Shown here piece after piece: positions 6,270 to 30,755 of a DNA stretch of 64,000 nucleotides. Position 1 is the stretch's first letter, and each line of letters opens with the position of its first letter. The stretch covers positions 4,894,054 to 4,958,053 of the forward strand of contig NZ_LT599032.1 of NCBI RefSeq assembly GCF_900079725.1. The letters are read 5' to 3'. The translations under genes and the position numbers were made by a program. Under the pieces are notes generated by a model. The model searched no databases and was not told where the DNA came from. It saw only the letters and a list, made by a program, of their open reading frames with translations. The stretch comes from an uncultured Dysgonomonas sp. Lineage in GTDB: Bacteria; Bacteroidota; Bacteroidia; Bacteroidales; Dysgonomonadaceae.

Positions 6270-9200
6270 CTACTGCTCGGCAACACATCGTACCGAAAAG
6301 CCTCCGGCGCGATAGGTAGGGTATTGCACGGCCACAGTGCTACTGGTAAAACTGAGATAATTTGCACTTGTGCCTGAATTTGTAGCCGTCCAATATATTC
6401 CGGTACTGCCAACATTAGTCAGATTTCCATTCGAATCTACGCGATAACCTGCTGCGGGGTACCATCCTCCGTAACCTGTCCAGGTCATTCCATTACTGCC
6501 CCATACTGCCTCATTCTGTTCCATTGGAAAGTTTGTGAGGAGCCATATTCCCTGCTGAGGTACACGCCAGCCTATAGGGCATGGATCGTAAACCGTTTTG
6601 GATGCAGGCCCCCAGAGGGCATCGCTCCTGACGCCACTATTGCTATACCAATCGCGAGGATCTGTAGCCAGATAATAGAATGTGAAAGGGTTAGCTATAG
6701 CATTGCTGAGATTATTTGCTACAGATACTTGTGCCTTGGTAACAGATATTGTCCCTGAGGCAGTGTATAATGTAGGTTCATCGGTTCCTGTCAATGTAGA
6801 AGAACTCGGGAACGGGTCTTTGCGTCCCCATTGGTACAGCAAGCCTTTTGTTGCCGCCGCACTAGGTGTGTTGCCTATGGCTCCGAGGTTACGGTCCATA
6901 AATTTACCTGTACCTAAAGCTACCGGTGTATAGTCGGTCACCCATATATGCCAGGACCAGAGGGTTGTGTTAGACGCATTCTTGATCTCTACAACCGCAT
7001 TTCCTGAAGTGCTTCCCTGTTTAACAAGAAGATAAGCTGATGATCCCGTTCCGATAATGTGGATCTGGCTTATATTTGAATTGGACGCTATCCTGTTTGC
7101 ATTGTCTGTCCAGAGGAGTCTTGCTGTGAAGTTCTCCGATGCACCCAATTGAGTCCCTATTCCGGAGTCGTTTGCCCGGCTTACAGGGATAAGTATTCCT
7201 GTTCCTCCCGGACTCACAATATAGGAGTTCGATTTAGGTTGGATGACACCGGCATAGCATGGTAATGTAATATCTGTATCGGCAAAACGACCTTGCGGGC
7301 TTTTGATTGTAAATACAATGTCTCTGTAGTAAAGTGCTGGATTGGCGGCATCGTTGATTATGTTGAAATATACCCTGGTACCGCTTGTATTGGCTCCTCC
7401 GGAAGTGGTCACTAAGGATTGTACCACATTATCCGGGTTACTTTTGACCTCAACGGTGAAGTTTGTATTGGACGTGACTGTGAAATATTTCTGAGTTCCA
7501 TCCATCAGGTAATATACATCTTTTTGCGTAGAGATATTATATCTGACTTGTCTGAGAAAAATACTTGTGGTTAAGAAGGTATATGGGTCGCCTATTCTGA
7601 AATCGACAACAGAGACCTTCTCCATGAAAGGATTTGCTGTAATCTCAGCCGTTGTAATAGCTGTAGGCCGTATAGTAAATGTTTTCTCTCCCGAAGGTTC
7701 ATTCAGAAGAGCGAGTATACCTGATCCCGGCTGGTCTGAAGATCCATCGAATGAAAAACCCATACCATAAATGTCGCTACGGCTTGCTGTGACACTTAAT
7801 GTGACAGGGTTCCATTTGAGTTTGAACTGTTGCGCCGCAGGCTGAATGTCGGCAGATGATGCGAAAACCAATTCCGATATCGCCTTGCCTGACATATCGG
7901 TAACCTTTAAATTCAGGTTGATTTCAGTTTTTTGCAGAACTTGCACCGTATGGGTAAGGCGTCCTGCGCTTAGATGAATATATGCTGTACGATCTGATCC
8001 TCCGGTGTTTTCGGACATATTGAGCTTTAGGTCTGTAACGCTACCCGAAACACCTGTGGATACGGCAGCTCCCAGAGTGGATACGACGCTGAGCCAGGTT
8101 ACATTGTTACCGGAGACATCCGTTATTTTGTCTATCTTCCATCCGGAAGGATAATCAGTTGTTACACAAAACGCATTATCAGAGCTTGAGGTTGTATGAG
8201 CATCGCGCGTAAGTGTGATTGAACTCTGCGATACTCCCAGCATATATTGTCCGTCGAAGACGATATCACCTATCTTTGCATTATCCCACATGATCACATT
8301 TGCTTCTATATTTACCGGGCGGGAGCTGAATGCTTCAGCAGGTGTGGGTAATCCTCGGCCGCTAACTTTTGTTATGTTTACTTTGTAATAATGGTTTCTA
8401 AGGAGGGGTAGGTAAGTGGTAACGGATGATGACGTGCGGGCAAAATCCACACGGTAGTATGTTGGTTGGCTGTCTCCTGTATATGTGCCGCCTATCACCA
8501 TGCATGTGGCATTTTGCATCGATGACGGATCAGCCTTGATAGCCTCGAATGTATATATTTCTCCTGATGATGCCGTATGTGCTGTAGTAATAGCCGTACC
8601 GTCATATAATAACGGGCCTGGAGTAAGAATAGATCCGGAAGGTATACTGGCTCCGGTCACAATGCTTTGTGACTGGTCCCAATTACCAGAAAGTGGAACT
8701 ATATATCCTTTATTGTTATAATTATATAGGCGTATGCTTTCTAAGGAGAAATTAGCCGAGGCATCTATATTGGTTAGTGCAACATCGATTTTAGATACCA
8801 TACGGACCAGATTTACAGATGTACTGGACGGTAATGCTGCATTTACGGAAATAGAAGGTATTTCGCCAAACATCGGAATAGGTATATATCCTGTGGACAC
8901 CGGATCGGCATTCCATTTATTGTTATTGGTGATAACCAGCTTTTCGAGAACCGATGCTTTGGAATCTCCTTCATGGATACTGCTCACGATTCCTGATACC
9001 GCTTGTCGCGCGTTAGCGAGTATCATCATATTGTATGTACCTTCGGGAACCTTTATGGTGAAGGTCTTGATGTTGCTGTCATCAGGATCGGTATTGATTA
9101 CATTGCTGTACACCGGTTGATAAGTATATTCCCCATTGCTATCGAACAATAGTACTTCGATGCTTCTGACTTCATTCTCGTTACTTTCTGTCAGAGCCTT

Positions 9201-17295: not shown

Positions 17296-18195
17296 TTAAT
17301 TTACCAACCGATAATCGCTCGGAGAACTACCTACTATTTTTTTAAACATACGACTAAAATGATGCGGGTACTTAAACCCTAATTCGTAAGCTATTTCATT
17401 CACCGTTTTATCAGGATTGTATAGTTTGTCCTTTGCTTCTTCTATAACTTTCAATTGTATATACTCTTGTGCAGATTTACCTGTTTCTTTCTTTATTAGA
17501 TCGCCAAAATAATTAGCAGACAAATGAAGTTCATCAGCAAAGTATTGAACCGAAGGTAGACCAATCGTCTGAGGTTTATCGGATTCAAAATAATTGTTGA
17601 GTAACATTTCGAAATTACTTAATGCATCTTTATTTACATTTTCGCGGGTAATGAACTGACGATCATAGAAGCGCATGCAATGATTAAGGAAAACTTCAAT
17701 ATTAGCTGTGATTATTGATTTACTATGCTTATCAATAGAGTGTCTCAATTCCTCTCTTATCTCCTTAAAACAATTCACTATAATTTGTCTCTCTCGCTCC
17801 GACATATGCAGGGACTCATTTGCTTCGTATGAAAAAAACGAATAGTCTTTCATCTTTTGAGCGAGAGGAGTTCCCCGGAGCAAGTCCGGGTGGAAACAAA
17901 GTCCCCAACCTTTCATCCTGAACACTTCACCAGTATCGTCTTTGCCTGCCACCTGTCCCGGGGCTATAAAAACGAGAGTTCCTTCCTGATAGTCATATGT
18001 GTGACGCCCATAAATTAAATCGCCACATTTCACATCTTTCAGGAAAATGAAGTAGAACCCGTATCTTTTACGCGCATGCCTGTATTCCTTTCCTACTTTG
18101 GTAAAATCAATAGAATTGATCAAGGGATGTAATGTTTCAACTCCAAGAAATGTATTATAGTCGTGTACTGTGTCAAAATTTAATATCTCACTCAT
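17296..18195 (-). CDS. AraC-family regulator of the adjacent hydrolase/redox operon
   Basis: This 299-residue regulator has an N-terminal cupin-type domain (FYFIFLKDVKCGDLIYGRHT, EGTLVFIAPGQVAG) and a C-terminal AraC HTH pair: VQYFADELHLSANYFGDLIK, TGKSAQEYIQLKVI, VNEIAYELGFKYPHHFSRMF, then VGSSPSDYRLVN. It is divergent from the six-gene operon starting at 18429. The intergenic region holds four phased copies of a CAGTAAT-like half-site, which is the spacing expected for AraC-type dimers and strongly suggests that this protein activates that operon. A possible own -7 box, TATTTTTG, lies on the minus strand at 18227-18234. Confidence 0.87.
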   Translation of the reverse strand: MSEILNFDTVHDYNTFLGVETLHPLINSIDFTKVGKEYRHARKRYGFYFIFLKDVKCGDLIYGRHTYDYQEGTLVFIAPGQVAGKDDTGEVFRMKGWGLCFHPDLLRGTPLAQKMKDYSFFSYEANESLHMSERERQIIVNCFKEIREELRHSIDKHSKSIITANIEVFLNHCMRFYDRQFITRENVNKDALSNFEMLLNNYFESDKPQTIGLPSVQYFADELHLSANYFGDLIKKETGKSAQEYIQLKVIEEAKDKLYNPDKTVNEIAYELGFKYPHHFSRMFKKIVGSSPSDYRLVN

Positions 18196-19531: not shown

Positions 19532-20113
19532 ATGAGATATTTCGTTTTAGCTCTGTTAATAATGTTAGTAATATGTCCTGTATCGGCATGTTCAAGTAAT
19601 AATGATAATATAGAGGAGACACCTGAAATAAGAGATCGTAAGATTCTTATTGCTTATTTCAGTTGGGGAGGTACTACACAGCAGGTAGCTGAGAATATAG
19701 CCAAACATACCGGAGGCACACTGTTCAGAATAGAAACTGTAGAACCTTATCCATCCGAATATGTACCATGTACCGAAGTGGCAAAAGTGGAACGTGACGA
19801 AGGAATTCGTCCTGATTTGAAAACCATAGTAGAAAACCTGGATCAATACGATACTATTTTTATTGGCTGTCCTGTTTGGTGGCATACCGCGCCTATGGCT
19901 ATCTGGTCATTTCTAGAAAGTGAGAATTATGATTTCAAAGGGAAAACGATCATCCCATTCTGTACATATGCTGCTACCTACAGGGATGAGACTTTGGCTA
20001 AAATAGTAGAACTTACTCCTGATTCTGAGCATCTGAAAGGTTTTGGAACAACCAATAAAAATGCCGATGTGACAGATTGGTTAAAAGAGATAGGTATCAT
20101 TTCAAATCAATAA
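19532..20113 (+). CDS. Flavodoxin-fold lipoprotein
   Basis: This 193-residue protein has a lipoprotein-type signal ending in PVSAC at residue 20 followed by a Ser/Asn-rich linker. The flavodoxin fold is clear: KILIAYFSWGGTTQQVAENI is the FMN-phosphate loop, DTIFIGCPVWWHTAPMA the second flavin-contact segment, and GKTIIPFCTYAATYRD the third. Flavodoxin-like oxidoreductases of this type use FMN to move electrons. A lipoprotein signal on an FMN protein means the cofactor would have to be loaded outside the cytoplasm. It lies 11 bp after the hydrolase gene and 10 bp before the SnoaL-like gene. Confidence 0.85.
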   Translation: MRYFVLALLIMLVICPVSACSSNNDNIEETPEIRDRKILIAYFSWGGTTQQVAENIAKHTGGTLFRIETVEPYPSEYVPCTEVAKVERDEGIRPDLKTIVENLDQYDTIFIGCPVWWHTAPMAIWSFLESENYDFKGKTIIPFCTYAATYRDETLAKIVELTPDSEHLKGFGTTNKNADVTDWLKEIGIISNQ

Positions 20114-20123
20114 CAATATACAT

Positions 20124-20603
20124 ATGGAAAGGAAAATAATAAAAAACAACAATGTGAAATTTTTAATTCTTGCATTAGGTATGATACTTGGAATTCAGGG
20201 AGTTTTTGCACAACAACAAATAACCAGTGAAGAGAAAACGAAGCAAGAACTTATAAACCTGTCTAAGACTAAATGGCAATGGATGGCGAAGATAAATGTG
20301 GACTCATTGAACGATCTATTTCATCAGGAAGCAGTCTTTGTTCACATGGGTGGAGTAATGAGCAAAGAGCAGGAACTGAACACTATCAAAAGCGGCGGAA
20401 TTCATTATAAGCATGCAGAGATACAGGAAACATCGGTACGTTTTGTTGGTAATACGGCTGTAATTTTAGATAAGATACGTTTGACTGCTGTTGTTGGAGG
20501 TAATGAAGTGGTAAATCCTTTTATCGTTACGGAAGTATATGTGCTTGTGGATGGTAAGTGGAAGCTGGGCTCACTCTCTTTCACCAGATTATTAAACGGA
20601 TAA
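20124..20603 (+). CDS. Exported SnoaL-like / NTF2-fold protein
   Basis: This 159-residue protein carries a signal peptide with a VFA-QQ cleavage site near residue 31. The mature part, LINLSKTKWQWMAKINVDSL, LFHQEAVFVHMGGVMSKEQE and a closing YVLVDGKWKLGSLSFTRLL, fits the DUF4440/SnoaL-like cone fold. Such proteins act as small isomerases, hydrolases or ligand binders, and the pocket here cannot be read for substrate. It sits in the middle of the six-gene operon whose other members are mostly exported too, so a role in the same periplasmic process is likely. Confidence 0.75.
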   Translation: MERKIIKNNNVKFLILALGMILGIQGVFAQQQITSEEKTKQELINLSKTKWQWMAKINVDSLNDLFHQEAVFVHMGGVMSKEQELNTIKSGGIHYKHAEIQETSVRFVGNTAVILDKIRLTAVVGGNEVVNPFIVTEVYVLVDGKWKLGSLSFTRLLNG

Positions 20604-20629
20604 AGGTAGAAAAATAAAAGAATTCAGAT

Positions 20630-22300
20630 ATGAAGAATATAAAATTATATATAATAATTACCATATTACTGGGGATATTCGGTAATATAAATGCACAGAA
20701 TGATATGTTAAGCAAAAAGCAAGAAAAAATAGTGACTATCTCTGCTTTTACAGCCAGAGGAGAACTGGAAAAGTTGAAACCTGAATTGGTTGCCGGTCTT
20801 GAAGCCGGACTTACTGTAAACGAAATAAAAGAAATGTTGGTACACCTGTATGCTTATAGCGGATTTCCCAGAAGCCTGAGAGGATTACAAACCTTCATGG
20901 CCACACTGGACGAACGTAAAGCCGCAGGAATAAATGACAATTGGGGACGTGAGGCATCGCCTATTACTGATGCCCGCGACAAGTATGAAAGAGGTAAAGA
21001 AGTCCTCGCTGAACTATCTGGTGTTACACCATCAGAAGGACGTACCACCGCAGGTTACGCCGGTTTCAGCCCCGAAATAGAAACCTTTCTTAAAGAGCAT
21101 CTCTTTGCCGATATATTTGAGCGTGATGTATTGACCTATGCGCAACGCGAAATGGTGACTGTGTCGATATTAATGGGGATTGGTGGCGTGGAGCCGATGT
21201 TAAACTCACATATTAATCTTTCTCTGAACGTAGGAATAACACCGGTCCAGCTTAGGCAGATGATAGGCATTATTGAGGTAAATGTGAGCAAAGAGAATGC
21301 CGGGGCCGCCAAATTTGTATTGAGTGATGTATTACAAAAAAGGGGACTAAACGCTGAGAATAAAACTCCGGAAATGGCAAACGGGGTGAAAATAGAGAAA
21401 GTATCTTTCCATAACAGGTTTTACAACAATGTAGCAGGCAACCTGTACTTTCCGCCAAACTATGATGCAGACAAGAAGTATGCTGCTATCGTGGTCGGCC
21501 ATCCTTTTGGTGGGGTAAAAGAACAAACATCCGGCTTACACGCACAAAAAATGGCTGAGCTTGGATATATTACACTTGCTTTTGATGCTACTCATTATGG
21601 TGAAAGTGGCGGTTATCCGCGCTATATAGAGTCACCCGAAGCACGGGTAGAAGATTTCAGTGCAGCAGTGGATTTTCTCAGTAATCATAAGAATGTAAAT
21701 GCAGATGCTATCGGTGTTATTGGTATTTGTGGTGGTGGCGGCTATTCGGTGAGTGCAGCACAGATAGATCATCGGATAAAAGCGATAGCAACCATCAGTA
21801 TGTACGACATGGGACGTGCCCGCCGCCAGGGATTAGGCGATGCTATTACTTATGAGCAGCGTATGAAAACATTGGATGAAATCGGCGAACAACGTACAAA
21901 AGAGTTTGCAGGTGCAGCAAGAAAAGATATTGCAGCTATTCCTACTCAACTCGGTCCGAATGATACAGAGAATACCCGCGAGTTTTTTGACTATTATCGT
22001 ACATCAAGAGGTGGACACCCTAATTCAACTACAAGTTATTCATATACCAGTCTCGCACCAATGATGAACTTCTTCCCTTTTGCACAGATTGAAACGATCT
22101 CCCCACGACCACTATTGTTCATCGTAGGCGAACATGCCATATCAGCTTATTTCAGCGAAGACGCTTATAGCAAAGCTGCTGAACCTAAAGAGCTGTTTGT
22201 GGTACCGGGAGCTTCACATGTGGATTTGTACGATAGGGAGGAATATCAGGCTATATCATTACCTAAACTAAATTCTTTCTTTAAACAATACCTTAAATAA
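20630..22300 (+). CDS. Exported fusion of carboxymuconolactone-decarboxylase-like and alpha/beta hydrolase domains
   Basis: This 556-residue protein has a signal peptide (GIFGNINAQ, about residue 23). Residues ~25-250 resemble two carboxymuconolactone decarboxylase/AhpD-type repeats (VNEIKEMLVHLYAYSGFPRS, LTYAQREMVTVSILMGIGG). Residues ~255-556 are an alpha/beta hydrolase related to dienelactone hydrolases and the YcjY type. The nucleophile position is Cys367 in GVIGICGGGGYS, with acid and base candidates in GEHAISAYFSED and PGASHVDLYD. The CMD part lacks an obvious CxxC, so it is probably not a peroxidase. The hydrolase half is a paralogue of the enzyme at 24863-25960, which is under a second AraC system. 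Substrate unknown. Confidence 0.83.
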   Translation: MKNIKLYIIITILLGIFGNINAQNDMLSKKQEKIVTISAFTARGELEKLKPELVAGLEAGLTVNEIKEMLVHLYAYSGFPRSLRGLQTFMATLDERKAAGINDNWGREASPITDARDKYERGKEVLAELSGVTPSEGRTTAGYAGFSPEIETFLKEHLFADIFERDVLTYAQREMVTVSILMGIGGVEPMLNSHINLSLNVGITPVQLRQMIGIIEVNVSKENAGAAKFVLSDVLQKRGLNAENKTPEMANGVKIEKVSFHNRFYNNVAGNLYFPPNYDADKKYAAIVVGHPFGGVKEQTSGLHAQKMAELGYITLAFDATHYGESGGYPRYIESPEARVEDFSAAVDFLSNHKNVNADAIGVIGICGGGGYSVSAAQIDHRIKAIATISMYDMGRARRQGLGDAITYEQRMKTLDEIGEQRTKEFAGAARKDIAAIPTQLGPNDTENTREFFDYYRTSRGGHPNSTTSYSYTSLAPMMNFFPFAQIETISPRPLLFIVGEHAISAYFSEDAYSKAAEPKELFVVPGASHVDLYDREEYQAISLPKLNSFFKQYLK

Positions 22301-22316
22301 TAAAAACAAAAAGAGT

Positions 22317-23683
<1,367 letters not shown>

Positions 23684-23800: not shown

Positions 23801-24289
23801 TTATCGTTGGATCTCAAATGTAATAGTTACGTCGCTTGCTCCAAGTGCACTTTGTAGCCCCGACGGATTATCAATACTTCCTATTCGGGTGTAACTGTAT
23901 GATGTTGAGAAGTTTTTGTAAAATAATACCAATGTGCTTGAACCATATAGCATTAAATCTCCGTTTCGGATAGTTCCTGGATTGGAGGAATTGGTAGGTA
24001 ATGGGTTTGGCAAATTGTAATATTTTTCATTGTTATTCAACTCAGACATATTTATAGTAATTGGAAGTAACTTTTTGAAGGTGCTGGTCGTCTCATTATC
24101 TTCTAAGACAGCTATAAATTCAACAGAATCAATCAAAAGCTTTATACTTCTATTATTTTCATCTCCGTTTTGTCTCGTATTTTCATAGTTGATCTCCGGT
24201 GTATACAGATTGCCCGTATCATTGGAGTTACATGCTGAAAGATTTGTTATCATCATAATAGATACTAATGCGGTAGCTATCTTTTTCAT
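23801..24289 (-). CDS. Cyclophilin-like-fold lipoprotein
   Basis: This 162-residue lipoprotein has a signal ending in LSAC at residue 20. The C-terminal ~110 residues (IKLLIDSVEFIAVLEDN, RNGDLMLYGSSTLVLFYKNF, SYTRIGSIDNPSGLQSALGA) match a bacterial cyclophilin-like fold family, which is related in shape to prolyl isomerases but of uncertain activity. It overlaps the acetyltransferase gene by 4 bp (ATGA), so it is translationally coupled and is the last gene of the minus-strand operon that starts at 25960. Confidence 0.75.
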   Translation of the reverse strand: MKKIATALVSIMMITNLSACNSNDTGNLYTPEINYENTRQNGDENNRSIKLLIDSVEFIAVLEDNETTSTFKKLLPITINMSELNNNEKYYNLPNPLPTNSSNPGTIRNGDLMLYGSSTLVLFYKNFSTSYSYTRIGSIDNPSGLQSALGASDVTITFEIQR

Positions 24290-24855
24290 AAGGAGTTTGT
24301 TTTTATTTTTCTTATCTCTCTTGCCGGATTACCACCTACTATCATATTATCAGGTACATCTTTAGTTACGACAGCTCCAGCGGCAACGATCGCATTTTCT
24401 CCGATCGTAACCCCCGGTAATATAATTGCTGCTGCGCCTATCCAGGCATTAAGCTTTATAAGGATAGGTTTTGTATAGACATTGTGCCTTAATTCGGGCT
24501 CTTCAGCATGATTTTCAGTAATTATGTTTACATTTGGCCCGATAAAAACACCGTCTTCCAAAGTGATGCCTCCTCTGTCCATAAACATACATCCACTATT
24601 GACAAATACTTTTTTACCCAAGCGGATAAATTGACCGAAATCGGTATAAAATGGTGGTACAATCCATGTTGTTTCGTCCAATTGCTGTCCGGTTAGTTCA
24701 CTGATAATATCACGGGTTTGTTCTTTAGTATGGTAGGACGCATTTAGTAAGCCTGTGATACGCATTCCTCTAAGAAGAGCCTCATATAATCTAGGATATT
24801 CGGGGTCATTTTCAAGGATTAAATCCCCTCGTTTCATTCTTTCAAATATATCCAT
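24286..24855 (-). CDS. Maltose/galactoside O-acetyltransferase-like enzyme
   Basis: This 189-residue enzyme belongs to the left-handed beta-helix (hexapeptide) acetyltransferases of the Maa/LacA group. The N-terminal helical Mac domain (DIFERMKRGDLILENDPEYP) is followed by hexapeptide turns: FIGPNVNIITENHAEEPELR with the catalytic-type His, AWIGAAAIILPGVTIGENAI and VAAGAVVTKDVPDNMIVGGN. It transfers acetyl groups from acetyl-CoA to sugar hydroxyls in the cytoplasm. It lies 7 bp after the hydrolase gene and overlaps the next gene. In this operon it may acetylate a small toxic sugar or aldehyde adduct; that is speculation. Confidence 0.9.
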   Translation of the reverse strand: MDIFERMKRGDLILENDPEYPRLYEALLRGMRITGLLNASYHTKEQTRDIISELTGQQLDETTWIVPPFYTDFGQFIRLGKKVFVNSGCMFMDRGGITLEDGVFIGPNVNIITENHAEEPELRHNVYTKPILIKLNAWIGAAAIILPGVTIGENAIVAAGAVVTKDVPDNMIVGGNPAREIRKIKTNSL

Positions 24856-24862
24856 CTTATAA

Positions 24863-25960
24863 TTATTTTAAGTTTTCTGAGAAAAAAGAATCTAGTTTGT
24901 CGAACGGAATAATCTCGGGACGGTCGTACAGATCCACATGGTTTGCTCCGGGAATAATCATCAACTCTTTGTTATCTCCTTTCAATTTTTTGAAAGTATC
25001 TTCACTGAAATAGCGGGAATGGGCGTTCTCTCCGTGAATTAAGAGTACAGCACTTCGAATTTCGTCGCTATACGATAGCAAAGGCATATTGATGAAAGAA
25101 AGAGACGACGTTATATTCCAACCACCGTTCGAGTTGAGTGAACGTTTGTGGTAACCTCGATTCGTTTTGTAGTAAGAATAGTAATCTTTCACAAACTGAG
25201 GAGCATCGTCCGGCAGCGGGTCTATGACACCTCCGGCAAGAGTGTTTGTGCCATTTTGGATATCAATTGTTCGCTGAGCATTGAGCTGTTGACGCAATTT
25301 ATACCGTTTGTCGGCATCCATCGAATCGAAATAACCGTTGGCATTTACGCGGCTCATATCATACATTGTCGAGGCTACAGTCGCCTTGATGCGGGTGTCT
25401 ATAGCTGCAGCGTTGACAGCCATACCACCCCATCCGCAAATACCAAGAATCCCGATACGTTCAGGATCTACATTGTTGAGAGTGGAGAGAAAATCGACTG
25501 CTGCACAAAAATCTTCCGTATTGATGTCAGGCGAAGCTACATAACGAGGTTCGCCACCGCTCTCGCCGGTGTACGAAGGGTCGAAGGCAATGGTAAGGAA
25601 TCCGCGTTCGGCCAAAGCCTGGGCATAGAGACCGGACGCTTGTTCTTTTACTGCCCCAAACGGGCCACTTACAGCGATGGCTGCCAAATTTCCGGTAGCA
25701 TCTTTTGGTATATACATATCGGCAGCGAGCATGATACCGTATCGGTTGCGGAATGTTACTTTACTGTGATTCACTTTGTCACTTTTGGGAAATACTTTAT
25801 CCCACTCTTGAGTTAAGTTCAGATCTTCATCCATAGTTATACAGGTATTAATATTTTTTGTTTCATATATTTTTCCGTCGGAGTTTGCCGCAAATAAATT
25901 TCCCGTGATGCAAAAACATATAATTAGTGCCATCATTGAATTTTTAATCCTCTTTTTCAT
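24863..25960 (-). CDS. Exported alpha/beta hydrolase, dienelactone-hydrolase-like
   Basis: This 365-residue enzyme has a signal peptide (MALIICFCITGNLFAANS). The alpha/beta hydrolase core shows IAVSGPFGAVKEQASGLYAQ, FDPSYTGESGGEPRYV, the nucleophile segment GILGICGWGGMAVN with Cys175, and GENAHSRYFSED and PGANHVDLYDRPE for the acid and His. These blocks line up with the C-terminal half of the fusion protein at 20630-22300. It is the first gene of a three-gene operon driven by a promoter with two TGAGCn5AGCAAA boxes. It probably cleaves a small ester or lactone in the periplasm; substrate unknown. Confidence 0.86.
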   Translation of the reverse strand: MKKRIKNSMMALIICFCITGNLFAANSDGKIYETKNINTCITMDEDLNLTQEWDKVFPKSDKVNHSKVTFRNRYGIMLAADMYIPKDATGNLAAIAVSGPFGAVKEQASGLYAQALAERGFLTIAFDPSYTGESGGEPRYVASPDINTEDFCAAVDFLSTLNNVDPERIGILGICGWGGMAVNAAAIDTRIKATVASTMYDMSRVNANGYFDSMDADKRYKLRQQLNAQRTIDIQNGTNTLAGGVIDPLPDDAPQFVKDYYSYYKTNRGYHKRSLNSNGGWNITSSLSFINMPLLSYSDEIRSAVLLIHGENAHSRYFSEDTFKKLKGDNKELMIIPGANHVDLYDRPEIIPFDKLDSFFSENLK

Positions 25961-26013: not shown

Positions 26014-26080
26014 CAAAATTATGATAGTTATTCCAAGGTATTTTCGCTCAACGGCTCAATGATTTTTGCTGTAAGGCTCA
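26014..26080 (-). promoter_or_regulatory. AraC-type promoter of the hydrolase/acetyltransferase operon
   Basis: Read on the minus strand, TGAGCCTTACAGCAAA (26080-26061 region) is followed exactly 22 bp later by TGAGCCGTTGAGCGAA (26058-26039 region). A TAATTTTG box (TAnnTTTG) at 26021-26014 starts exactly 37 bp after the second copy. There is no TTTG -33 box, as expected for an activator-dependent promoter. The start point should be near 26007, giving a ~47-nt leader. The same layout recurs at 28611-28677 and 29588-29654. Confidence 0.8.
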
Positions 26081-26276
26081 TCCTGTTTTTTATATCTGTT
26101 TATTGCCTGTCTTCAAATTTATATAGAATGAAACAGTCTCTTGTATGATAGGATTGCGTACAGTAACGATAAATATAGTCCTAATCATACTTATTATAGC
26201 TTTGGGATTATAGTTGCTTTACAAACTCTTTGATTCAGGAGGGAAAGATAACCACAACAGAAATACGAGCCGCTGT

Positions 26277-26331
26277 AATCGTTACGGTTTTTGTCATTCT
26301 TGATATCCGTAACGATTCCATAACGAATGAC
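26277..26331. other. Interleaved inverted repeats (pseudoknot-like) in a non-coding region
   Basis: In the ~340-bp stretch between the AraC-type promoter and the tRNA terminator, AATCGTTACGG (26277-26287) pairs with CCGTAACGATT (26307-26317), an 11-bp perfect match. GTCATTC (26293-26299) pairs with GAATGAC (26325-26331). The order A-B-A'-B' would form an H-type pseudoknot in RNA or serve as paired operator arms in DNA. The second pairing is short and may be chance. Nothing else is visible in this stretch. Confidence 0.35.
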
Positions 26332-26379
26332 CGTTCAATATCGGCATTCTGATGACTGATTATGTCTAAAGGAGAGAAT

Positions 26380-26415
26380 AAAAAAACTCTCTAAGAATTT
26401 ATCTTAGAGAGTTTT
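26380..26415 (-). terminator. Rho-independent terminator after the tRNA gene
   Basis: A 14-bp perfect stem, AAAACTCTCTAAGA / TCTTAGAGAGTTTT with a 5-nt loop, is followed on the minus strand by a run of T. It lies about 45 bp downstream of the minus-strand tRNA-Arg gene and fits as its terminator. Confidence 0.88.
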
Positions 26416-26460
26416 GTCTTGTTTTATCAGAAATAAGTCGCTTATTTGCTGATCTTTAAG

Positions 26461-26534
26461 TGATCCCGAAGCGATTCGAACGCTTGACCCACAGCTTAGA
26501 AGGCTGTTGCTCTATCCAGCTGAGCTACGGGACC
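26461..26534 (-). tRNA. tRNA-Arg (anticodon TCT)
   Basis: On the minus strand all four stems are complete: acceptor GGTCCCG/CGGGATC, D-stem GCTC/GAGC, anticodon stem ACAGC/GCTGT with loop CTTCTAA (anticodon TCT, reads AGA), and T-stem AAGCG/CGCTT with loop TTCGAAT. The discriminator is A and the CCA end is not encoded. Length is 74 nt. I see no duplicated 3' end nearby that would mark an integrated element. Confidence 0.97.
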
Positions 26535-26842
26535 ATCCTTTTTGCTTTTAGCGAGTGCAAAGATAGTATATTTTGGTTAAAACAAAAGACTTTTATCGAA
26601 AAGTTTTCACAATAGAATATGATTGGTTGATACAAAAGATTGTAAATATATTGCCTGTATCGATAACATTTACTACTTTTACTCCGAACAATAAAACCAC
26701 TTCGATGAGAATGTAAAAAACTTTTACCATACACAGGTTTATTTCTCAATTGTTTAATTGACTATGCAGTATATTTTTAATATCTGTCTCTCAGTCATTT
26801 TTTATACCAACATGTAATTCTTAAATCAGCAAAGCAAATTTA
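26535..26842. other. Non-coding region between tRNA and ABC-F leader
   Basis: This AT-rich stretch should contain the tRNA promoter on the minus strand and the ABC-F promoter on the plus strand. I see no reading frame of interest, repeat or clear promoter match; TATATTTTT near 26770 is the closest to a -7 element. Confidence 0.3.
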
Positions 26843-26935
26843 ATGCATCTATCCGGTCTGTAAGACGGATAATCATTTCTGGCACTCTGTTCGGGCGGCA
26901 ATTATGCCGTATCCGGGGTTCCGAGTTTTTAATAT
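26843..26935 (+). promoter_or_regulatory. Probable ribosome-mediated attenuator before the ABC-F gene (with 6-codon leader peptide)
   Basis: A mini-frame ATG...TAA at 26843-26863 encodes MHLSGL. Its end overlaps a hairpin, ATCCGgTCT / AGACGGAT at 26851-26870. Next comes a multi-step stem at about 26885-26925 (CGGCA/TGCCG core at 26896-26909, CGG/CCG and CTC/GAG outer pairs) followed by TTTTT, which looks like an intrinsic terminator 20 bp before ATG 26954. CGGATA at 26866 can also pair with TATCCG in the terminator stem, giving an alternative fold. This is the layout of drug-induced attenuators before ABC-F resistance genes; function here is inferred. Confidence 0.5.
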
Positions 26936-26953
26936 TTTAAAATTATATCTATC

Positions 26954-28540
26954 ATGTGTATTTCCGTACAACAATTAACATATACACATCCTGATAAAGA
27001 AGTTCTTTTTCAGGGTGTCAGTTTTTCATTAACTAAAGGGCAGAAAATAGCCCTGATAGGAGATAACGGCTCTGGCAAATCGACTTTAATGCATTTGCTG
27101 AAAGGAGATTTAATACCTTCATCGGGCGAAATAATCTGTTCGTCTGAGCCATACTATATACCACAGCACTTTGGGCAGTATAACCTGATGACAGTGGCTC
27201 AGGCGTTGCGAATAGACAGTAAGTTAAGAGCTTTGCATGCAATTCTCAATAATGATGCCTCCCCTCAAAACTTTGCTTTGCTTAATGATGACTGGACAAT
27301 AGAAGAACGCTCCCAAGCTGCATTATCCCAGTGGGGAATGGAACATATCCCGTTTACAGCATCTTTGGATAGCCTCAGCGGAGGTGAAAAAACAAGGTTG
27401 TTTCTTGCAGGTATAGACATACATGAGCCGGGGCTTATCCTGTTCGATGAACCAACAAATCACCTCGATTATCACTATCGTGGAAAATTATATGATTTCA
27501 TCACTTCATCCCGCAAGGCAATGGTTATCATCAGCCACGACAGGGCTCTTCTGAACTTATTGCCGGAAACCTATGAGCTGAGAAAAGATGGAATTACTTA
27601 TTATGCCGGAAATTACGAGTTCTATAAAATCCAAAAAGAGCAGGAGGTACTATCTTTGCAGGTAAAGCTGGAAGAACAGGAAAAAGAACTGCGCCTTGTA
27701 CGTAAAACAGCAAGGGAAATAGCGGAACGAAATCAGAAACGGGATATTCGTAATAAAAAAAATGTTGAACAGAAAGGAATAGCCCGTATCGTGGTCAACA
27801 CATTACGAAATAAAGCAGAAAACAGTACAGCGAAGCAGAAAGGCACACATGAACAGAAGATGGGATCTTTAAGAGAGAATATCAACGATATACGAAAGTC
27901 TATGCCTGATATGAAAGCGATGAAAACAGATTTCAGTGAATCAGGCCTGCATGCGGGAAAAATACTGGTTTCGGCAAAAGATATAAATTTCAGCTACAAT
28001 GATAATCCTTTGTGGAAGGATTCACTAAATTTCCAGATAAAGAGCGGTGAGCGAATATTGCTTCGAGGTAGTAACGGATCGGGTAAGACTACTTTATTGA
28101 AACTAATCACAGGACAATTGCTACCTCAGCAGGGTGTATTGGAACTGGCCGATTTCACTCACGTGTATCTCGATCAGGAATATTCTATCATCAATAACGG
28201 GCTGACGGTTTATGAACAAATACAGCAATTTAGTACAGGATTGCAGGAACATGAAATAAAAACAATACTCAACCGCTTTCTTTTTCCTTACCAGTCCTGG
28301 GATAAAGAGTGCGCTCTTCTCAGTGGCGGTGAAAAAATGAAACTTGCTCTCAGTTGCCTGATGGTATCCTCCAATACACCCGATATATTTATTCTGGACG
28401 AACCGACAAACAACATCGATATCCGGAATATCGAGATACTTACTGCAACAGTTCGGGATTTTGGAGGAACAGTATTGCTCGTATCGCACGACATCTATTT
28501 TATAAACCAGATGGATATCGATTATGAAATAGAGCTTTGA
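26954..28540 (+). CDS. ABC-F family ATPase (ribosome-associated, possible antibiotic-resistance protein)
   Basis: This 528-residue protein has two ABC domains and no membrane segment. Domain 1 has Walker A GDNGSGKST (36-44), signature LSGGEK, Walker B LILFDEPTNHLD; domain 2 has Walker A GSNGSGKTT (~372-380), signature LSGGEKMKLAL and IFILDEPTNNID. Between them lies a charged, helical linker (~220-320) rich in Lys, Arg and Glu (KNVEQKGIARIVVNTLRNKA), which in ABC-F proteins reaches into the ribosomal peptidyl-transferase or tRNA exit site. Members either tune translation or protect ribosomes from antibiotics. The upstream leader with mini-ORF and terminator speaks for an inducible resistance role, but that is inference. 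Confidence 0.92.
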   Translation: MCISVQQLTYTHPDKEVLFQGVSFSLTKGQKIALIGDNGSGKSTLMHLLKGDLIPSSGEIICSSEPYYIPQHFGQYNLMTVAQALRIDSKLRALHAILNNDASPQNFALLNDDWTIEERSQAALSQWGMEHIPFTASLDSLSGGEKTRLFLAGIDIHEPGLILFDEPTNHLDYHYRGKLYDFITSSRKAMVIISHDRALLNLLPETYELRKDGITYYAGNYEFYKIQKEQEVLSLQVKLEEQEKELRLVRKTAREIAERNQKRDIRNKKNVEQKGIARIVVNTLRNKAENSTAKQKGTHEQKMGSLRENINDIRKSMPDMKAMKTDFSESGLHAGKILVSAKDINFSYNDNPLWKDSLNFQIKSGERILLRGSNGSGKTTLLKLITGQLLPQQGVLELADFTHVYLDQEYSIINNGLTVYEQIQQFSTGLQEHEIKTILNRFLFPYQSWDKECALLSGGEKMKLALSCLMVSSNTPDIFILDEPTNNIDIRNIEILTATVRDFGGTVLLVSHDIYFINQMDIDYEIEL

Positions 28541-28610
28541 TGGATTAAATAATAATGTAAATTTTAATGTTAATTATCTTCACCGTTCATGTAAAAAGAA
28601 TAATCCCCGA

Positions 28611-28677
28611 TGGGCCTGTGAGCAAAAATAATTGAGCTTCACAGCAAAAATAAATTAATTTATCTTCTTTATTTTTG
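28611..28677 (+). promoter_or_regulatory. AraC-type promoter of the regulator gene (autoregulation)
   Basis: TGGGCCTGTGAGCAAA starts at 28611 and TGAGCTTCACAGCAAA starts at 28633, exactly 22 bp apart. A TATTTTTG box (TAnnTTTG) at 28670-28677 starts exactly 37 bp after the second copy; no -33 TTTG is present. A further copy, TGAGCTTGTGAGCAAA, starts at 28711 inside the expected leader or start-codon region and could act in feedback repression. The layout equals those at 26014-26080 and 29588-29654. Confidence 0.78.
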
Positions 28678-28717
28678 GATAATAAAAATAGTTTTATCAA
28701 TCCACAAGATTGAGCTT

Positions 28718-29578
28718 GTGAGCAAAAGAATAGTTATATTTGTAAAAACAAAAGATGATATGGAACAGAGAGTTAGAGTGGAAACGCTAGATTATTCCGG
28801 CATATTTCTGTCATGCTATACCAACGACAATACCACATGTGTACATGCAACAAAAGACCATACGCTGCTTTATCTCTATTCGGGCGAGCATGTGATCGAT
28901 GATAATGGACAACAAACCATTATTCGTCCGGGAGAATGTGCCTTTATTCGTCGTGACCACCGTATCACGATGTATAAAAATCACACTGAAAAAGAGCAAT
29001 ATAAGGGGATTTCCCTAACTTTCCGTCGTAACCTGCTTCGCGAATTCTACAATAAACTGCATAAAAGCGAAATACCAAAATCGGTATCCGAACTTCACGA
29101 AAGTGTATTCAGAATCAAATCCAGGCCCGATATTACAAGCCTTTTTCAATCGCTCACTCCTTATTTCGATTCCAAAATCAAACCCAGCGATGAAGTGGCA
29201 AAGCTGAAGTTGCAGGAAGGAATATATTGTCTGCTCAATACCAGTAAGGAATTCTTTCCTGTACTGTTCGACTTTACCGAACCCTGGAAGATTGATATTA
29301 TCGAGTTTATGAACGAAAATTACATGTATGAGCTTTCTATGGAAGAAATAGCATCTTATACTGGCCGTAGCCTGGCAACCTTTAAAAGGGATTTCACAAA
29401 AATCAGTGATGTACCGCCCCAGAAATGGCTTATACAAAAAAGGCTGCAGGTTGCTTACGAAAAACTCAAAAATGAGGATAAAAAAGTAAGTGACGTGTAT
29501 GTTGAGGTAGGTTTCAAAAACCTGTCTCACTTCTATTCAGCTTTCAAAAAACAATTTGGATATTCCCCAAAGAGATAA
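28718..29578 (+). CDS. AraC-family regulator, master of the TGAGC-box regulon
   Basis: This regulator of up to 286 residues has an N-terminal cupin-like domain (TLLYLYSGEHVIDDNGQQTI, RPGECAFIRRDHRITMYKNH) and a C-terminal AraC HTH: ELSMEEIASYTGRSLATFKR, VSDVYVEVGFKNLSHFYSAF and the end KKQFGYSPKR. The frame begins with GTG at 28718; ATG at 28760 is the other candidate. The promoter box at 28670 puts transcription start near 28684, so both are possible; the GTG lies inside a third TGAGC copy. Identical box pairs stand before this gene, the alcohol dehydrogenase and the operon from 25960, so it very likely controls all three. Confidence 0.87.
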   Translation: MSKRIVIFVKTKDDMEQRVRVETLDYSGIFLSCYTNDNTTCVHATKDHTLLYLYSGEHVIDDNGQQTIIRPGECAFIRRDHRITMYKNHTEKEQYKGISLTFRRNLLREFYNKLHKSEIPKSVSELHESVFRIKSRPDITSLFQSLTPYFDSKIKPSDEVAKLKLQEGIYCLLNTSKEFFPVLFDFTEPWKIDIIEFMNENYMYELSMEEIASYTGRSLATFKRDFTKISDVPPQKWLIQKRLQVAYEKLKNEDKKVSDVYVEVGFKNLSHFYSAFKKQFGYSPKR

Positions 29579-29587
29579 AAGGATACC

Positions 29588-29654
29588 TGAGCTTTTCAGC
29601 AAATAAATCTGAGCCTTTCAGCAAAAAAAGTGTAAAGTTCTTCTTTTACTTTTG
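29588..29654 (+). promoter_or_regulatory. AraC-type promoter of the alcohol dehydrogenase gene
   Basis: TGAGCTTTTCAGCAAA starts at 29588 and TGAGCCTTTCAGCAAA at 29610, exactly 22 bp apart. A TACTTTTG box (TAnnTTTG) at 29647-29654 starts exactly 37 bp after the second copy. The start point should be near 29661, giving a ~42-nt leader before ATG 29703. Same geometry as the other two promoters of this set. Confidence 0.82.
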
Positions 29655-29702: not shown

Positions 29703-30755
29703 ATGAGTACAAAACAAGTAAAAGCATTTGGAACAGAGGCTGCTGTAGAGCCTTTAAAAGATTTAAATATAGAGCGTAGGGAAGTTGCGTCCAACGATGT
29801 AGAAATAGAAATCCTGTATTGTGGTATTTGCCATTCCGATTTACATAGCATTCATAACGATTGGGGCAGCACTATATATCCGATAGTCCCCGGGCATGAG
29901 ATAGTTGGCAGGATTACGAAAACAGGTAATAACGTAACTAAATTCAAGGTCGGAGATTTGGCAGGTGTCGGCTGTATTGTAGATAGTTGCCGCGAATGTG
30001 AACATTGCCATGAAGGAGAAGAGCAATTCTGCGAAAAAGGATGGACTGTTGTATTCAATTCACCCGACAGTAAGCATGGTGGAGTCACTTATGGCGGATT
30101 TTCTGAAAGTATTGTTGTAGACGAAAACTACGTTGTACATGTACCCAATACCTTAGATTTACCGAGCGCTGCCCCTATCCTCTGTGCCGGCATCACGGTT
30201 TATTCCCCGCTGAAGCACTGGAATGCCGGACCTGACAAGAATATCGGAATAATAGGCATAGGTGGTCTGGGGCATATGGCCATAAAGATTGCCAAGGCAA
30301 TGGGTGCTTATGTGACGGTCTTTACCACATCGCAATCGAAAGCTGACGATGCAAAACGTTTGGGGGCAGATGCTGTAGTTCTTTCTTCCAATGCCGAACA
30401 AATGAATAAATGTCCGAAACAGGATATGATATTGGATACCGTTTCTGCAAAACATGATGTCAATGCTTATCTCAACTTACTGAAAACAGATGGTTCTTTA
30501 GTAATAGTAGGATTACCTAACGAACCACTGGAAATAGGTGCCTTTAATGTGGTAAATGGAAGGAAAAGTTTCTCCGGTTCCAATATTGGAGGTATAGCTG
30601 AGACACAAGAGGTATTGGACTTCTGTGCAAAGCACAATATCAAAGCCGATATAGAGCTTATCAATGTACAGGATGTTAATACAGCCTTTGATAGGCTGGA
30701 GAAAGGGCAGGTAAAATATCGCTTCGTAATTGATATGGCTTCTTTAAAGAATTAG
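29703..30755 (+). CDS. Zinc-dependent NAD(P) alcohol dehydrogenase (YahK/cinnamyl-type)
   Basis: This 350-residue cytoplasmic enzyme is a medium-chain zinc alcohol dehydrogenase that reduces aldehydes with NADPH. The catalytic zinc site uses Cys40 in CGICHSD and His65 in PGHE. The structural zinc motif is CRECEHCHEGEEQFC. The Rossmann loop is GIGGLGHMAIKIAKAMGA. The sequence style is that of the YahK/AdhC group, which handles a broad range of aldehydes. It stands alone after the AraC gene, has its own TGAGC-box promoter, and is closed by a strong terminator. With the aldo-keto reductase and hydrolases nearby it suggests a response to reactive carbonyl compounds; that link is inference. Confidence 0.93.
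   Translation: MSTKQVKAFGTEAAVEPLKDLNIERREVASNDVEIEILYCGICHSDLHSIHNDWGSTIYPIVPGHEIVGRITKTGNNVTKFKVGDLAGVGCIVDSCRECEHCHEGEEQFCEKGWTVVFNSPDSKHGGVTYGGFSESIVVDENYVVHVPNTLDLPSAAPILCAGITVYSPLKHWNAGPDKNIGIIGIGGLGHMAIKIAKAMGAYVTVFTTSQSKADDAKRLGADAVVLSSNAEQMNKCPKQDMILDTVSAKHDVNAYLNLLKTDGSLVIVGLPNEPLEIGAFNVVNGRKSFSGSNIGGIAETQEVLDFCAKHNIKADIELINVQDVNTAFDRLEKGQVKYRFVIDMASLKN

Follow-up and report, generated by a model that had tools for sequence, protein, structure and literature searches.

Three promoters lying within 3.6 kb of each other in a 64,000-nucleotide stretch of an uncultured Dysgonomonas sp. genome (contig NZ_LT599032.1, hereafter the window) very probably form a local activator regulon of the AraC-family protein encoded at 28760-29578. 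They precede the gene of the regulator itself, a zinc-dependent alcohol dehydrogenase/aldehyde reductase gene and an operon encoding an alpha/beta hydrolase, a hexapeptide-repeat acetyltransferase and a cyclophilin-like protein. Binding, activation and autoregulation by this protein are predicted, and C27 and C60 of its regulatory domain are candidates for receiving the signal. By computation, the sites and their spacing were found to be nearly unique in the genome, to co-occur with the regulator and to precede the same kinds of genes in other genomes. Assignment of the three promoters to this regulator is supported by loci picked solely by protein similarity, by co-occurrence in relatives, by a sample of 296 genomes and by the kinds of target genes.

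Each promoter contains two direct 16-bp repeats of the form TGAGCn5AGCAAA located about two helical turns apart, the second of which reaches the -33 position (Table 1). The start-to-start spacing of the boxes is 22 bp in all three promoters and each time a TAnnTTTG element begins 37 bp past the start of the second box, leaving a gap of 21 bp between the end of the proximal box and this element. Two of the six paired boxes have a mismatch, one each. The boxes, their spacing and the downstream element were thus all observed where the original prediction had placed them. The sigma-ABfr promoter consensus of the Bacteroidota consists of TTTG at -33 and TAnnTTTG at -7 (PMC10620806, in excerpt). The -7 element is present in all three window promoters and TTTG at the -33 spacing is absent from all three, which bears out the lack that had been claimed and is expected of an activator-dependent promoter. 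TTTG was looked for 17-23 bp upstream of the -7 box in 110 promoters that have the motif and a perfect -7 box, comprising the window's three and those of all the loci described below, and was found in none.

The promoter layout, with the proximal box lying over -33 and no TTTG there, fits activation. We infer that the regulator binds the two boxes at each of the three promoters, where the AGCAAA end of the proximal box would cover the place of the -33 TTTG. The bound regulator would then replace the -33 contact and recruit RNA polymerase, switching on its own gene, the dehydrogenase gene and the hydrolase-acetyltransferase-cyclophilin-like operon. Autoactivation is predicted because promoter 2 has the same layout as the others. 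An overlap of this kind would also allow the regulator to act chiefly as a repressor at the same sites, with the proximal box blocking polymerase at -33 until a signal releases it. A third box, single and perfect, which lies in the regulator gene's 5' untranslated region about 26 bp past the expected transcription start and had no place in the original prediction, would suit such a block. Repression is improbable, since with TTTG at -33 in none of the 110 promoters there would be little promoter to repress, and the exact spacings of 22 and 37-38 bp suit a contact with polymerase. AraC proteins with such a layout are usually activators. The third box scores 20.1, like a true box, and a scan of the promoters of 36 other AraC-type genes found no counterpart (best score 6.2), which also argues against a general block. 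It may damp the expression of the regulator's own gene under the activator reading.

The whole genome (5,219,467 bp) was searched for the box pair at spacing 22 with a pattern of 22 specified bases and up to three mismatches. Three matches were found, which are the three promoters, and the backwards control gave none. The agreement among the promoters is therefore not of the kind produced by chance, as had been claimed, nor are box pairs scattered at random over the genome at this tolerance. Single loose boxes were discarded as evidence, being at chance level in both window and genome: with up to two mismatches, 24 were found in the window against 17.8 expected (8 of 100 shuffles reach 24), and the two exact single boxes elsewhere in the genome equal the two of the backwards control.

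A profile was also built from sequence only, using 57 sites from outside the window out of 60 box pairs left after removal of near-copies; the pairs were drawn from 80 loci chosen by similarity to the regulator and from loci of relatives. These training sites were located via the window consensus and resemble the window by construction, so that the independent part of this evidence is their position beside regulator relatives. In the window genome the profile recovers the three promoters with E values of 1.3e-13, 7.6e-12 and 6.2e-11, followed by a fourth place at 7.8e-6 and thereafter nothing better than 0.2. The fourth place (2162391-2162456, minus strand) has a box score of 32.7, matches two of the six -7 bases and is followed by an open reading frame (ORF) of at least 100 amino acids only after 366 bp. 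Without a -7 box it was not counted as a promoter and it may be a degenerate site.

The 80 loci were selected solely because they encode a relative of the regulator and span Dysgonomonas, Chryseobacterium, Pedobacter, Niabella, Flavobacterium, Myroides, Bacteroides, Alistipes and others. When scanned with a matrix of the boxes only, which does not score TAnnTTTG, these loci gave 119 matches of score 14 or more, against none in the reversed sequence. A site was observed in 76 of the 80 loci at this score and in 72 at a score of at least 24. All six TAnnTTTG bases were found at an offset of 36-38 in 86 of the 110 matches scoring 24 or more, and the best -7 offset is 37 or 38 in 103 of them. A tally of 126 pairs at spacing 22 includes repeat copies of the window sites and doubly collected genomes and was set aside in favour of these cleaner counts.

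These results also bear on whether the three copies are recent duplications of a single promoter, or a chance pattern picked by eye, as their location within 3.6 kb might suggest. A chance or eye-picked pattern was rejected on the basis of the genome-wide pair search, the profile recovery and the matrix scan of the 80 loci. The three sequences differ outside the specified positions. Sites built in the same way stand before genes of these kinds in other genera, including at places far from the regulator gene, and the profile that recovers the three contains none of them. The probability of this explanation as a whole is negligible.

Co-occurrence of site and regulator was examined in 120 genomes of relatives, 27 of which have a regulator homologue at E 1e-20. 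A site at E 1e-5 was found in 21 of these 27 and in one of the 93 genomes without a homologue (Fisher p 4e-17, relatedness ignored); at a laxer E of 0.01 the counts are 24 of 27 and 11 of 93. The expected co-occurrence of site and regulator in related genomes is thus observed both in the loci and in the genomes. The second sample comprised 296 genomes from across the phylum. A homologue at E 1e-30 was found in 26 of them including the window genome (30-40% identity to the regulator in the foreign genomes), and a site at E 0.001 in 12 of the 296. In the five foreign genomes with a site at E 1.7e-5 or better (G140, G218, G293, G136 and G227), it is located no more than 2 kb from a homologue with 34-39% identity; a weak site of G396 (score only 14.3) is also within 2 kb of a homologue. 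Six distant loci were fetched, in all of which an oxidoreductase gene of the short-chain dehydrogenase, aldehyde dehydrogenase or epimerase type begins 81-103 bp after the site, with the regulator homologue further downstream on the same strand.

Several observations weigh against the regulon as proposed. No site was found in four of the 80 loci (L079, L093, L098 and L102) or, at E 1e-5, in six of the 27 relatives with a homologue. Four of these six have homologues of only 25-38% identity and another, G099, has a site just below the threshold at 4.6e-5; G101, with a homologue of 52% identity, has no site even at E 0.01. Sites are present in G008, a genome 55% complete, in which the regulator was not found. 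Relatedness is left out of account in the co-occurrence test, and eight of the 120 genomes supplied 11 of the 57 training sites. In the phylum sample no site at E 0.001 was found in 18 of the 25 foreign genomes with a distant homologue, and the weaker sites of G230, G360, G169, G148 and G144 (2.5e-4 to 7.6e-4) are not near a homologue. Lastly, the six distant homologues that were fetched keep the site, and all five of those that could be scored are without both cysteines.

The boxes could instead be bound by another AraC-type protein of the genome, in which case the regulator would be only a target. Regulator genes are common targets, and a second AraC-like gene lies behind a site in some loci (L012, L042 and L091), as this explanation would have it. 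It is nevertheless highly improbable: the loci were chosen by the regulator protein alone and the site was found in 76 of 80, presence and absence of the site track the regulator over the 120 genomes, and distant homologues share an operon with the site-bearing promoter. A regulon comprising the regulator's own gene, the dehydrogenase and the operon, as originally predicted, is therefore supported by independent loci and by co-occurrence, with activation as a predicted property.

The genes behind the site were compared over 143 distinct sites, 131 of which have a downstream ORF, with names taken from Pfam scans of cluster representatives. AraC-like regulators form the largest cluster (37, of which a few are a second regulator gene), followed by hexapeptide acetyltransferases (18), aldo/keto reductases (12), zinc alcohol dehydrogenases (11), proteins of the cupin/carboxymuconolactone decarboxylase type (10) and alpha/beta hydrolases (9). 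Smaller clusters are short-chain dehydrogenases (5), RibD_C reductases (4), DUF362 proteins (3), flavodoxins (3), cyclophilin-like proteins (2) and FMN reductases (2); the 15 singletons include an iron alcohol dehydrogenase, a MATE transporter and a Flavodoxin_2 protein. The window promoters fall one each into the AraC-like, zinc alcohol dehydrogenase and alpha/beta hydrolase clusters. The cyclophilin-like family follows a site in L042 and L119, and since both acetyltransferases and cyclophilin-like proteins occur elsewhere as the first gene behind a site, the whole window operon is supported as a target. Near 0.38 Mb in G044, homologues of the hydrolase, the cyclophilin-like protein and the alcohol dehydrogenase lie behind a site of score 48.9, with the regulator at 3.31 Mb on the same contig, which indicates that the site is not merely a neighbour of the regulator gene. 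Five sites were observed within 19.5 kb in G004, of the same genus (locus L178, at 1815, 2740, 4265, 8488 and 17731), one of which precedes a second AraC-like gene behind the regulator. The size of the regulon therefore varies within the genus.

The regulator was found to carry both features of the AraC/XylS family that were tested for. Its C-terminal part is a double helix-turn-helix (HTH) of the AraC type (Pfam HTH_18, 62.7 bits against a cut-off of 33.6; HTH_AraC, 42.3 bits against 26.6) and its N-terminal part is a cupin-like domain (Pfam ExsA_N, 64.1 bits against 27). The structure model (mean predicted local distance difference test score 86.7, predicted template modelling score 0.68) aligns with CsvR, Rns and ToxT along the entire length with E values of 1.6e-10 to 1e-8, and with the ExsA regulatory domain (4zua) with a template modelling score of 0.73 by target length. 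In these structure alignments with the AraC/ToxT/Rns/ExsA family the identity is 11-17%, and the domains are placed differently from those of the regulator model (root-mean-square deviation of about 13 for the full length). The protein reached the cut-off of none of the NCBIfam equivalog models listed for it. The original prediction had placed the gene at 28718-29578; its AraC type and its end were confirmed, and the start is probably not the annotated GTG at 28718 but the in-frame ATG at 28760. The GTG was rejected as it lies inside the third box and upstream of the conserved protein.

Both C27 and C60 of the regulatory domain are present in all 57 aligned rows. Over all 80 loci C27 was observed in 78 and C60 in 79, the exceptions being L083 and L112 at position 27 and L101 at position 60. 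L083 and L112 also hold two weak sites (scores 18.7 and 16.7), an observation from two loci only. The pair is incomplete or lost in relatives of up to 40% identity (L032-L035 and L170-L174), several of which keep the DNA site. As the distant homologues keep the site without the cysteines, these residues are not needed for the motif and the idea of a thiol signal is limited to the closer group. Within that group, the conserved pair suggests, from sequence, that reactive carbonyls or oxidants may be sensed by thiols. The signal might be a reactive carbonyl, a quinone or an oxidant sensed via C27 and C60, as the target genes are largely carbonyl, quinone or flavin reductases. Sensing of electrophiles is our preferred reading for the closer group, at about an even chance, and metal binding by the two cysteines is the alternative.

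A further feature was observed in the related genomes. Of the 125 sites tested, 46 can form a terminator-like hairpin with a folding free energy (dG) of -13 or lower in the sequence that runs from the proximal box up to the -7 element. The proximal box is the 5' arm of this hairpin, and a T-rich stretch after the hairpin runs into the -7 element (for example L044:8850-8894, L045:8847-8891, L064:8854-8898 and L107:8841-8885). Such a hairpin was not found at the three window sites (dG -6.4, -3.6 and -2.5). Hairpin sites tend to follow genes, with 38 of the 46 starting within 30 bp of the end of an ORF on the same strand against 24 of the 79 other sites (p 1e-8, uncorrected for relatedness). In 21 loci that have both an AraC-gene promoter and a site immediately behind a gene, the hairpin is present only at the second site in 15, only at the first in one and at neither in five. 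As an example, in L045 the regulator's TAA stop codon is at 8820-8822 and the distal box begins at 8825, while the proximal box pairs with TTACTGTGAGGCTC in a 13-bp stem that is followed by CTCTTTAATTTTG.

Covariation was assessed in 26 of the 46 hairpins, aligned without gaps at the 37-bp spacing (two of 28 were left out before alignment). Pairs form in 94.2% of the pair cells, partly by construction since the hairpins were selected for folding. Double changes number 39 against 10.8 in shuffles (reached by 0 of 500), and the pairs with any double change number 7 against 5.2 (reached by 31 of 500). The control set of 18 AraC-gene promoters gave no pairing signal (40.7% against 41.2%). Among unselected sites, the 62 located behind a stop codon average 9.6 of 12 pairs and the 63 others 7.0, taking the best of three registers. 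The simplest reading is that the hairpin is the terminator of the preceding gene and that its 5' arm also belongs to the next promoter's operator. It might instead be an inverted third copy of the operator and no terminator, which is disfavoured because the hairpin follows stop codons, because 43 of the 312 pair cells in the hairpin alignment are G-U and because the T-rich stretch stands where a full inverted box would need TCA. The apparent merger of operator and terminator, in which the preceding transcript is often the regulator's own, is seen in the related genomes and not in the window promoters. A broader possibility, which we hold tentatively and at somewhat less than an even chance, is an ancient thiol- or electrophile-sensing AraC regulon of the Bacteroidota whose operator has merged with a terminator in many lineages, so that one 70-bp cassette would insulate, sense and start.

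Table 1. Promoter elements, regulator and target genes in the window
Feature	Position	Strand	Remarks
Promoter 1, distal box TGAGCCTTACAGCAAA	26065..26080	-	matches TGAGCn5AGCAAA
Promoter 1, proximal box TGAGCCGTTGAGCGAA	26043..26058	-	one mismatch to TGAGCn5AGCAAA
Promoter 1, -7 element TAATTTTG	26014..26021	-	TAnnTTTG
Promoter 2, distal box TGGGCCTGTGAGCAAA	28611..28626	+	one mismatch to TGAGCn5AGCAAA
Promoter 2, proximal box TGAGCTTCACAGCAAA	28633..28648	+	matches TGAGCn5AGCAAA
Promoter 2, -7 element TATTTTTG	28670..28677	+	TAnnTTTG
Third, single, perfect box TGAGCTTGTGAGCAAA	28711..28726	+	5' untranslated region of the regulator gene
Promoter 3, distal box TGAGCTTTTCAGCAAA	29588..29603	+	matches TGAGCn5AGCAAA
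Promoter 3, proximal box TGAGCCTTTCAGCAAA	29610..29625	+	matches TGAGCn5AGCAAA
Promoter 3, -7 element TACTTTTG	29647..29654	+	TAnnTTTG
AraC-family regulator	28760..29578	+	ExsA_N-type regulatory domain and AraC HTH (Pfam, structure model)
Zinc-dependent alcohol dehydrogenase/aldehyde reductase	29703..30755	+	Pfam ADH_N, ADH_zinc_N
Alpha/beta hydrolase, first operon gene	24863..25960	-	Pfam Peptidase_S15/DLH-type
Hexapeptide-repeat acetyltransferase, second operon gene	24286..24855	-	Pfam Hexapep
Cyclophilin-like protein, third operon gene	23801..24289	-	Pfam Cyclophil_like2; 4-bp overlap with second gene

The dehydrogenase scores 337.7 bits with the NCBIfam Ahr model, which is under the model cut-off of 470. 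An ABC-F protein gene (26954-28540; 368.5 bits with a ribosomal protection-like model, cut-off 380) is located between the divergent operon and the regulator and has no box pair in front of it; an ABC-F homologue of 51.5% identity also lies close to the regulon operon in L176. A tRNA-Arg (tct) at 26460-26534 on the minus strand, located in the interval from promoter 1 to the ABC-F gene, is followed by a terminator-like hairpin at 26415-26383. The region 19532-23683 contains a cluster of flavodoxin-like, SnoaL-like, CMD-hydrolase, cupin and aldo/keto reductase genes. Neither the pattern nor the profile search of the genome found a box pair in this cluster, which was therefore rejected as part of the regulon in the window genome, though such genes follow the site elsewhere. 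An AraC-like gene seen by eye at 17296-18195 (minus strand) may regulate it.

Several known systems resemble the one described here. YqhC of E. coli with yqhD-dkgA likewise places an AraC-family regulator beside an alcohol dehydrogenase/aldehyde reductase, and aldo/keto reductases are also found behind the site in the regulator's relatives. YqhD is an iron-type enzyme whereas the window dehydrogenase is of the zinc type, and the promoter class is that of the Bacteroidota. YqhC is an aldehyde-responsive AraC-family regulator (PMC12566513, in excerpt). E. coli RclR, like the present regulator, is an AraC-family protein with a conserved cysteine pair in the regulatory domain, and its Cys-21 and Cys-89 form a disulfide on oxidation (PMC7464077, in excerpt). 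The RclR cysteines are 68 residues apart and C27 and C60 only 33. The regulator falls far short of the curated NCBIfam RclR model, which gives 33.4 bits against a cut-off of 400 and matches the DNA-binding part only. In the AraC-type hybrid two-component system (HTCS) regulons of Bacteroides, direct repeats are also read by an AraC-type HTH; the alpha-mannan HTCSs use two 16-bp sites with a 5-bp spacer (PMC3878776, in excerpt), where the window has 16 bp and a spacer of 6. HTCSs are membrane sensors for sugars, whereas the window regulator is soluble and has two domains, the regulatory one being cupin-like. The string TGAGC is absent from the main text of PMC3878776.

A literature search limited to open-licence papers gave no description of this regulon, nor of the regulator's site, layout or target list, and none of the matches listed describes a merger of operator and terminator. 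The regulon is of the AraC type, a known class; what stands out is its wide distribution in the phylum, the pair of cysteines and the arm shared by operator and terminator in relatives. For a regulator found in many Bacteroidota genomes, the analysis supplies an exact DNA site together with the layout of its promoters and a list of candidate targets. The compound that it senses becomes a testable question, with aldehydes, quinones and oxidants acting via C27 and C60 as the candidates. It likewise becomes testable whether one stretch of DNA can serve both as the operator of an activator and as a terminator stem which, if true, would link within a single element the dosage of the regulator with the insulation of its targets.

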